A stretch of DNA of 41,286 bases from Sedimenticola sp. (GTDB lineage Bacteria > Pseudomonadota > Gammaproteobacteria > Chromatiales > Chromatiaceae), in assembly GCA_027008705.1 (NCBI GenBank), contig JALVEB010000038.1, positions 1 to 41,286 on the forward strand. Reading direction: 5' to 3'. Position numbers and translations under genes: made by a program. The first letter of the stretch is position 1, and every line of letters starts with the position of its first letter. A model generated the notes under the pieces. It saw nothing but the letters and a program-made list of their open reading frames with translations. It was not told the DNA's origin and searched no databases. Shown piece by piece: positions 13,581 through 31,262 of the stretch.

Positions 13581-13744
13581 TCAGATGACTCCTTAAGAGT
13601 GGTTTGTGTTTTGTTCTTGGGCCGCATCCTACAATGAGGGTGGCGTACAGGCCCCTCCAGCCGTCAGGCGAGGCCTGGCGGCATTTTGATAGACCGGCGC
13701 GCAAGCGGTTTTCTTTCCGTTCATGGCTCGGTCGGCGACGAGTA

Positions 13745-13908
13745 TATACTCGTCGCTCATGAATTTTCGGATTTTCGAGAGCGTTCCTCGTGCCCGTGGG
13801 CTAGGCGCGGAAACGAGTCATAGCCCATTCTATGGCGAGTTTCCGCAACAACGCCCACGGGTGCGAGGGGCGGTCGCAGTGGCCGAAAATTCATGGGCGA
13901 CGAGTATA
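13745..13908 (+). repeat. 164-bp foldback MITE-like element, copy A
   Basis: tatactcgtcgctcatgaattttcgg...ccgaaaattcatgggcgacgagtata; about 10 differences by hand count from the copy at 31099-31262. Confidence 0.9.
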
Positions 13909-15350: not shown

Positions 15351-15429
15351 CATACTTGTCGCCCATGAACTCTCGTTTATCAAGGCGGTTCCTCCGCGGA
15401 GGCCGAAAAATTCATAGGCGACGAGTATA
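15351..15429. repeat. Short (about 79 bp) internally deleted derivative of the foldback element
   Basis: catacttgtcgcccatgaactctcg...ccgaaaaattcataggcgacgagtata retains both diverged ends. Confidence 0.75.
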
Positions 15430-21249: not shown

Positions 21250-22578
21250 ATGCTAAAACGCATAAAGATTATGGGTTATAAGTCCCTGAAGGATATCCAG
21301 GTGGAGCTGGTGCCTCTTTCGGTTCTGTTTGGCCCAAACGGCGCTGGGAAAAGCAATTTTCTGGATGCGTTGCAATTGCTTTCCAAGATCGCGGTCAGCC
21401 GAACCCTGAAAGAAGCTTTTGATCCACCTTACCGGGGCAAGCCCCTGGAGTCGTTCTCATTTCCTCCCAGTGGTTTGGAAGGCTTGTTGGATTCAGAGTC
21501 CAGGCGCTTCAGTATAGAAGTTGATGTCGAGCTTTCGCCAGCTGTTGTCGAGCATGTGAACCGCCAGATTCGTGAGATGAGAGGAGGCATGCCGGGAGAT
21601 GGGCCTTCGGATACTTTGAAAGAGAAATCAAAAAAAATCGCAACAGTCCGAGAAAGAAATCTCCGTTACCGTATCGAGATAGAGATATTGCCGAAGAAGA
21701 GTGGCCTTCTGCGTGTTGCCGATGAATATCTGGTAGCGTTGAATACCAAGGGTGAGCCGACAGGCAAGAGGAGACCCTTTCTAGAGCGGATGGGAGACAA
21801 GATCCATCTGAGAATGGAGGGTCAGGCTCATCCCACTTATCATGAACGATATCTTGATCATAGCATCCTTTCGTTGCCCAATTATCCACCCCATTATCCT
21901 CATTTGGTGGCGATGCGGAGAGAGCTGGAAAGTTGGTTCTTTTTTTATTTCGAGCCCAGGGAGAGGATGCGGTCTCCCAACCCTGTTAAAGAGGTTCGAC
22001 ATGTCGGTCTTATGGGTGAGGAGCTGGCTGCTTTTTTGAATACCTTAAATGCCATTGATCCCCGCCAATTTAAAGCAGTTGAAAAAGCGCTGCATACCAT
22101 CCTGCCTAATGTCGATGGACTGGAAGTCGAAGTAAATAATTTGGGTGAGGTTGAGTTAAAAGTAAAGGAGAATGGAATTCTTGTCCCCGCCCGGGTGCTG
22201 TCCGAAGGAACCTTACGGGTGCTTGGCCTGTTAGCACTGTCTGGCGCCAAGGATCAGCCCTCTCTGGTTGGTTTCGAGGAGCCGGAAAACGGTATCCATC
22301 CCCGCAGGCTCCAGCTTGTAGCAGAGTTGTTCAAAACTCGTGCTGGGATGGGAGAAACCCAGTACATCATTACTACCCACTCTCCGATCCTGCCCGACCT
22401 CATGCCTGATGAATCATTGTTTGTTTGTAAGAAGGTTGGAGGCGAGACTCGTATTGAATCATTCAAAACATGGGGCGCTTTAGGTCGTCGGGCGGATATA
22501 GATCTTTCCTTGATGGAAGAGGATGAAAATGAACTGACGGTTTCCGAGCGGATCCTGCGGGGCGATTTCGATGCATAG
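21250..22578 (+). CDS. AAA (AAA_15/AAA_21, SMC/OLD-like) ATPase
   Basis: GPNGAGKSNFLDAL Walker A; VLSEGTLRVLGLLAL signature; SLVGFEEPENGIHP Walker B; IITTHSPILPD H-loop. Confidence 0.9.
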   Translation: MLKRIKIMGYKSLKDIQVELVPLSVLFGPNGAGKSNFLDALQLLSKIAVSRTLKEAFDPPYRGKPLESFSFPPSGLEGLLDSESRRFSIEVDVELSPAVVEHVNRQIREMRGGMPGDGPSDTLKEKSKKIATVRERNLRYRIEIEILPKKSGLLRVADEYLVALNTKGEPTGKRRPFLERMGDKIHLRMEGQAHPTYHERYLDHSILSLPNYPPHYPHLVAMRRELESWFFFYFEPRERMRSPNPVKEVRHVGLMGEELAAFLNTLNAIDPRQFKAVEKALHTILPNVDGLEVEVNNLGEVELKVKENGILVPARVLSEGTLRVLGLLALSGAKDQPSLVGFEEPENGIHPRRLQLVAELFKTRAGMGETQYIITTHSPILPDLMPDESLFVCKKVGGETRIESFKTWGALGRRADIDLSLMEEDENELTVSERILRGDFDA

Positions 22579-23161
22579 TATCGTGCTTTTCGTGGAAGAT
22601 TATGCGCATAAGGAATTTCTTGCATGCTTGTTGCGGAGGCTGGCAAAAGAGCACGATGTCGATATTGGTGATCTGGTCTGGCTCAATACTCGCAGGGGGC
22701 ATGGGGCTGTAATCAAGGAGTTAAGGCAATTTTTGCGCGACTTGCAACGTGGGCGTGCTGATTCCTACGATCTCATCGTAGTTGCCACGGACGCCAACTG
22801 CAAGGGGTTCAATCATCGTGTAAAGGAGATTATGGATGTGACAAGGAATGTTCCAATCCCGGTTGTCTGCGCTGTGCCCGATCCGCACATTGAACGATGG
22901 TTGCTTCTAGATTCAGCGGCTTTTAAGGAGGTGTTCGGGCGCGGCTGCCATGCCCCAGACCAGAAATGCGAGCGCCATCGCTATAAGAAGGCGTTGATTG
23001 ATGCTATCCGTGATGCCGGCGTGACCCCAAGTCTCGGTGGTGTTGAATTTTCCACCGATCTTGTGGATGTGATGGATCTACAGCGGGCGGCCAGGGTCGA
23101 CGGTTCGTTCCACCGATTGTTGGATAACATTAATGAAGTCTTTTCTGAATGGAAGCGATAA
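22571..23161 (+). CDS. TOPRIM/DUF4276-like protein partnered with the ATPase
   Basis: FVEDYAHKEFL (motif-1 Glu), DLIVVATDANCKG (acidic motif 2), PDPHIERWLLLD; start overlaps ATPase stop by 8 nt. Confidence 0.7.
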   Translation: MHSIVLFVEDYAHKEFLACLLRRLAKEHDVDIGDLVWLNTRRGHGAVIKELRQFLRDLQRGRADSYDLIVVATDANCKGFNHRVKEIMDVTRNVPIPVVCAVPDPHIERWLLLDSAAFKEVFGRGCHAPDQKCERHRYKKALIDAIRDAGVTPSLGGVEFSTDLVDVMDLQRAARVDGSFHRLLDNINEVFSEWKR

Positions 23162-23197: not shown

Positions 23198-23275
23198 TAT
23201 TGCCCATGAATTTTCGGTTTTCCGAGGCCGTTCCTGGCGTCCTCGAGCGTTTTTCGAAAATTCGTCTTCGTCCCA
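23198..23275. repeat. Degenerate short derivative of the foldback element
   Basis: ttctattgcccatgaattttcggttttccgaggccgttcctggcg...ttttcgaaaattcgtcttcgtccc. Confidence 0.6.
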
Positions 23276-23402: not shown

Positions 23403-23560
23403 TATACTCGTCGCCCATGGTTTTCCGAGGCCGTTCCTCGCGCCGGTGGGCCAGGCATGGAAACGAGTCATCGCCTTTTCAGACATGGTGAGTTTCCGCA
23501 ATGATGCCCATGGGTGTGAGGGACGGTCGCAGTAGCCGAAAATCATGGGCGACGAGTATA
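23403..23560 (+). repeat. About 158-bp foldback MITE-like element, copy B (diverged)
   Basis: tatactcgtcgcccatggttttccgaggccgttcctcg...gagggacggtcgcagtagccgaaaatcatgggcgacgagtata. Confidence 0.88.
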
Positions 23561-31098: not shown

Positions 31099-31262
31099 TA
31101 TACTCGGCGTCCATGAATTTTCGGCCACTGCGACCGTCCCTCGCACCCGTGGGCGTCGTTGCGGAAACTCGCCATGGAATGGGCTATGACTCGTTTCCGC
31201 GCCTGGCCCACGGGCGCGAGGAACGGTCTCGAAAAACCGAAAATTCATGGGCGACGAGTATA
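31099..31262 (-). repeat. 164-bp foldback MITE-like element, copy C (opposite orientation to A)
   Basis: tatactcggcgtccatgaattttcgg...ccgaaaattcatgggcgacgagtata; reverse complement aligns without gaps to 13745-13908. Confidence 0.9.

Follow-up and report, generated by a model that had tools for sequence, protein, structure and literature searches.

The Correia or NEMIS elements of Neisseria are about 105-158 bp long, occur in high copy number between genes, carry inverted ends of 24-26 bp with a terminal TA, duplicate their target and give a foldback transcript (PMC2229807, PMC10969869). In enterobacteria, ERIC (IRU) is an imperfect palindrome of 127 bp with TA ends, which is dispersed in the bacterial family and forms an RNA hairpin (PMC2229807, PMC2267715). 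RUP of Streptococcus pneumoniae is small and non-autonomous, with TA ends and target duplication, and IS630-Spn1 has been proposed as its mobiliser (PMC2229807). Coxiella burnetii contains two palindromic MITEs, QMITE1 and QMITE2, both of which yield small RNAs; QMITE2 measures 150-190 bp and has relatives outside the genus (PMC5896051). MITEs with TATA ends and a large hairpin are found also in the sulfur-oxidising gammaproteobacterium Candidatus Thiomargarita nelsonii, where no parental IS was found (PMC4853749).

The element described here lies in a stretch of 41,286 nucleotides from Sedimenticola sp., referred to as the window. In architecture, which alone was compared, it is like Correia/NEMIS in size, TA-terminal inverted ends, target duplication, copy number and intergenic position. 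It differs in its host group and in having a strand-specific, covarying core that recurs in differently ended elements, a feature absent from PMC2229807 and PMC10969869. With ERIC it shares the imperfect palindrome, the TA ends and the family-wide dispersal; with RUP it shares the small non-autonomous form and the TA ends with duplication, whereas no IS630 partner was found for the window element. Compared by description, QMITE2 differs in its direct repeats of 7-11 bp and its GTAG REP (PMC5896051), and the Thiomargarita nelsonii MITEs differ in their TATAG ends and in one copy located within a group I intron. As for kinship with ERIC or BIME, blastn of the window element against 5,426 E. coli genomes gave no match at E<=0.1. 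Repeats of the REPIN kind are mobilised by a RAYT (Y1) transposase, carry a GTAG-type tag and do not duplicate TA, and the TA duplication of the present element argues against its belonging to them.

Bacterial MITEs are usually viewed as transposon ends with filler, their hairpins being by-products. In contrast, the interior loop of this element is better conserved than most of its ends, its stems covary as the fold of a single strand and its core is present in elements with other ends. It is likely that the element represents a family of MITEs that relies for its spread on a strand-specific hairpin core, repackaged between transposon ends, and a biochemical function may be inferred for this core. 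A long-standing question is thereby made testable, namely whether selection acts on the RNA hairpins of bacterial MITEs, and to the benefit of which party, element or host; pairs of filled and empty sites, together with covariance models, are direct material for tests of this kind.

Copies in the window and in the host genome

An earlier, sequence-only reading of the window had listed three copies, at 13745-13908, 23403-23560 and 31099-31262. All three are present at these positions, and three shorter pieces had been overlooked, at 15351-15429, 23201-23248 and 13730-13746. The features are the following.

13745-13908, plus strand: full-length copy A, 164 bp; by analogy with the empty sites of relatives, the element proper would be 13747-13906 (TAC...GTA), with a TA duplication on either side
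13745-13770, plus strand: left terminal inverted repeat of copy A, with one mismatch to the right repeat (pair 96%)
13883-13908, minus strand: right terminal inverted repeat of copy A
13779-13875, plus strand: conserved core of copy A, comprising helices 2 and 3, the internal loop TAGGC/AACAAC and the apical loop; it is the part covered by model R2, under which it scores 97.1 bits
23403-23560, plus strand: copy B, 158 bp, left end partly missing
31099-31262, minus strand: full-length copy C, 164 bp, inverted, 94% identical to A over all 164 positions
15351-15429, plus strand: short version of 79 bp with both ends present and most of the core deleted
23201-23248, plus strand: truncated left-arm remnant
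13730-13746, minus strand: end fragment of another copy, with 3 mismatches in 17 and a TA in common with copy A

Copy B reaches only 158 bp because most of AATTTTCGG is lost from its left end. The earlier hand count of about 10 differences between A and C in 164 positions fits their identity. The common 26-bp ends are also real, apart from the mismatch in the left end of copy A and the partial loss in copy B, and those of the element are 96-100% complementary. Folding back of nearly the whole element is confirmed by calculation, copy A forming one hairpin of -113.2 kcal/mol where its shuffles average -54.8 (z = -14.3). A 17-base end finds 9 matches in the window at up to 3 mismatches, where 0.12 are expected. 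The end fragment at 13730-13746 may be a sign that copy A inserted into an older copy or right beside it. A gene for an AAA_21 ATPase (21250-22578) and a DUF4276 gene (22571-23161) stand in succession in the window; they correspond in PADLOC-DB to HEC-01A and HEC-01B, a candidate anti-phage defence, and element remnants and copy B lie directly downstream of them.

The host genome (G000, Sedimenticola sp.) consists of 2.9 Mb in 244 contigs. The expected dispersed family with further copies is found there: when up to 2 mismatches are allowed the 17-base end is matched 300 times and its reversed control never, about 42 near full-length copies are hit by DNA search, and an HMM run over 1.70 Mb yields 167 non-overlapping stretches, 86 of full length, which merge to 159 elements. 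Because this 1.70 Mb contains 240 of the 300 end matches, the genome-wide total is estimated at about 200 elements. Only 3 of the 159 elements interrupt an open reading frame, and coding sequence holds 74% of the TA sites according to our own, rough gene calls. Intervals between convergent genes hold 16.7% of the elements, with 17.2% expected and thus no preference, and orientation is weakly biased (46 to 28, p = 0.047); a terminator role is not indicated.

Presence of the element is patchy among sister species. A congener MAG (Sedimenticola sp.) also carries copies; in the other genome of the genus that was searched, blastn found none and the covariance model gave one weak match (E 0.005). 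A stretch of about 1.36 kb that includes an element (L060 / C231:1202-2559) is 96% identical between the host genome and the congener G001, other common stretches being 66-83% identical, and reflects either recent transfer or assembly cross-contamination.

Insertion at TA and the search for a transposase

Among relatives from a different genus of the family, one orthologous site is filled in three genomes (G123, G185, G093) and empty in three others (G025, G173, G205). The empty site reads gagaaTAtcggc (TG in G205) and the filled site gagaaTA[TACCGAG...CTCGGTA]TAtcggc, the downstream flank being the same one and reading tctgc or tcgcc in filled species; G159 has at this site a copy with an internal deletion. 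From the comparison of filled and empty sites it follows that the element inserts at TA, duplicates TA, starts with TAC and ends with GTA. The target duplication formerly suggested by the TA ends is therefore supported by clean pairs of sites in relatives, and its extension to the window copies is by analogy. In the copies of the host genome, the outer two positions are conserved at 0.81 (T) and 0.84 (A), compared with 0.80-0.97 at the next eight, and this drift of the outer TA is as expected of a target duplication. Nested or tandem copies with a common TA occur at C224:32590-32915 and beside copy A.

The element thus shows the general characters of a MITE: it is 164 bp long (below 500), has inverted ends and target duplication, is dispersed and mostly intergenic, and contains no transposase reading frame, as had been noted before. 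These data support its classification as a non-autonomous DNA transposon (MITE) with TA duplication, and the former reading of a foldback MITE family is upheld, both many copies and orthologous empty TA sites having been found.

In the 1.70 Mb of the host genome, pairs of ends lying 400-6000 bp apart enclose only ordinary genes and no transposase. A looser search with 8-base ends gave no convincing autonomous partner, and the multi-copy proteins of the searched host sequence revealed no transposon family. Transposon-spaced end pairs are absent also among the listed end positions of three g24 genomes (G159, G209, G025) and of G077. Since an autonomous partner with matching ends is often missing for bacterial MITEs (PMC2229807), its absence does not disqualify the element as one. 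In G077 the elements come in two lengths, 164 bp and about 206 bp; their ends are nearly identical, the longer ones often being TTTCC-ended and not TTTCG-ended.

Derivation from IS630/Tc1-mariner, also proposed in the sequence-only reading, remains conjectural: the TA duplication fits it, but the ends do not. Pfam DDE_3 (IS630) detects two genes in the host genome, of which one is intact and the other broken, and the intact copy has ends around TTGATTATGCGACAT, unlike those of the element. Element ends are absent from all 31 IS630 loci checked across the bacterial family, so that no full-length IS630-type element with the same terminal inverted repeats was found among the loci inspected. Among 194 genomes, IS630 is present in 27 of the 51 carriers of the element and in 99 of the 194 overall (p = 0.87), and the two are not associated. 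An IS630 partner may have been present in the past and then lost. ISAzo13 was considered as a partner and rejected, PF07592 being absent from G000 and G001 and the ISAzo13 ends in relatives being different. At L091, on host contig C194, a separate hairpin repeat CAGGCTGTTGAAAAACGCAG...CAACATCCTG adjoins the intact IS630 and is likely another small mobile element.

Conservation of the fold and of its strand

The first distant relative (L061), from another genus, was obtained by plain blastn at 67% identity. With a covariance model (R1) built from 16 copies, full-length relatives were recovered from 51 of 194 genomes; these belong to 24 of the 61 genera sampled from the bacterial family. In the aligned cores of 24 elements both sides have changed in 31 of 38 pairs; doubly changed cells number 162, compared with 52 in shuffled and at most 56 in slid alignments, and the covariation score is 0.535 against 0.185 and at most 0.170, respectively, counts that are inflated by common ancestry and come from relatives mostly collected with a model rewarding pairing. 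Within the host genome, compensatory double changes amount to 44 versus 20.9 +/- 4.3 in shuffled data (maximum 33 of 300), and copies fold at a median of -102.7 versus -89.4 in a simulation of neutral decay, two differences that subfamilies can inflate. Covariation across copies had been suggested as a check of the sequence-only reading. Pair counts were used for this purpose because RNAalifold gave a poor structure on all 91 copies, probably due to pairs broken in decayed copies. Rfam covariance models give only a tRNA in the window and one chance match (E 0.1) in the relatives. Between TATA-type genera, identity reaches 94% in the internal loop AAGGC, which is as well conserved as the terminal TATA (85-89%); it is 71-74% over the remainder of the ends and 61-72% in both main stems.

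Helix 2 contains 111 G-T cells and 3 A-C cells, at 20 and 2 of 23 positions, respectively, and the ends of TATA-type elements contain 45 and 6 when out-of-register rows are left out. As G-U is used and A-C almost never, it is the fold of a single strand that is conserved. No such preference is expected of an ordinary double-stranded palindrome. In all the strand pairs folded but one, the G-T strand is the more stable by 13-42 kcal/mol, with values of -107.8 versus -65.9 for L061, -116.7 versus -79.6 for L194 and -91.7 versus -72.6 for L249, a relative found by blastn. The host genome shows no mutational strand bias, with per-site values of 0.0475 for C>T and 0.0493 for G>A, and single changes in helix 2 of its copies are symmetric, 80 leading to G-T and 75 to A-C. 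Selection presumably acts mainly on the lineage of transposing copies and not on each resident copy. The strand-specific fold would most simply act as RNA; single-stranded DNA shows the same preference.

Under the reading of a family that spreads by means of its hairpin core, a putative transposase acting in trans would move the element, insert it at TA and duplicate this TA. The long hairpin between the TAC(T/C)CG... ends, with its fold kept for one strand, would be copied into RNA by read-through transcription from neighbouring genes and would form a single rigid hairpin containing a conserved internal loop. Lineages keeping the fold would then spread or persist better, for example if the transcript hairpin lessened the harm of insertion or were bound by a protein helping the element.

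Other explanations have been weighed. The element could be a plain TA-specific MITE, in which the palindrome is a by-product of foldback origin, the fold is unselected and paired changes arise by template switching (quasipalindrome correction). All the evidence of mobility fits, and the strand-symmetric changes of helix 2 in the host genome are as expected under neutral decay. However, arm-to-arm correction yields Watson-Crick pairs and leaves the 111 G-T against 3 A-C cells unexplained, as well as the conserved unpaired loops and the core common to different ends, so that this account appears quite improbable. The active form could instead be single-stranded DNA, extruded for example on the lagging strand and recognised by a transposase or a host protein. 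The plus strand indeed folds better as DNA too (-48.4 versus -34.9 for L061), and the G-T asymmetry extends to the ends, where a transposase-bound DNA structure would explain it. TA duplication with inverted-repeat ends is, on the other hand, typical of double-strand insertion of the DDE type and not of the single-strand HUH route, and a DNA hairpin is regarded as unlikely.

An element domesticated by the host as a bidirectional terminator or mRNA-stability hairpin, and kept for host benefit, would agree with the intergenic position, the very stable hairpin and the folding of resident copies beyond that of simulated neutral decay. Yet convergent-gene sites are not enriched, the orientation bias is only weak and sister species differ in carrying it, all of which make such a role very improbable.

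The core in elements with other ends

The conserved core, GGCAAGGCGCG...CGCAACGC-GCC, is found inside elements with different ends. Ends of the TTAGGG... type surround it at L209, L212, L215, L217 and L219 and on a Desulfosarcina plasmid (L249), and ends of the TCAGAGG... type at L210, L213 and L216 and on an Azotobacter plasmid (L291). These relatives keep the core in full, L291 in part. An HMM of TATA-type cores that takes no account of pairing returns nearly all the other-ended cores as top matches, in the right place and strand, with E values from 2e-5 to 0.45 in 41 kb and at best 2.3 for the reversed control; L216 and L291 are not recovered. The direct repeats beside the other-ended elements read as TTA and TCA, not TA.

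At E<=1e-4 the core model R2 has matches in 110 of 370 gammaproteobacterial genomes; in 78 of these E falls below 1e-8, and copies are often numerous. This breadth is one measured by model scores. On 570 kb of the host genome every R2 match above 40 bits belongs to the family of the window element, and 50 kb of E. coli gives none. Searches of IMG/VR, plasmids and phages with the window element found no match, and those with other relatives found one on the Desulfosarcina and one on the Azotobacter plasmid. A search of viral contigs for the core pattern gave a single match inside a phage gene, which was judged to be due to chance. No description of the core was found among open-licence papers, and the end and core strings gave no relevant literature match.

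Tentatively, the core could be a conserved, strand-specific RNA (or single-stranded DNA) domain, common to Gammaproteobacteria and a minimum of one plasmid of the Desulfobacterota, which has spread between unrelated transposon ends (TATAC..., TTAGGG..., TCAGAGG...) with differing apparent target repeats (TA, TTA, TCA). It would then be a structured cargo common to MITEs of different transposases.

The next-best R2 matches in the 570 kb belong mainly to a second palindromic family of the host genome (L117:11006-11100, L096:1876-1970, L107:8379-8473, L118:13736-13830), which does not occur in the window; its ends are like GCATTTCTCACCA / TGGTGAGAAATGC and its body matches R2 weakly, at 22-37 bits. 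At G536:C120:692-893 and G104:C1:523379-523579, two core copies separated by about 8 bp are arranged facing one another, as a head-to-head or tail-to-tail dimer.
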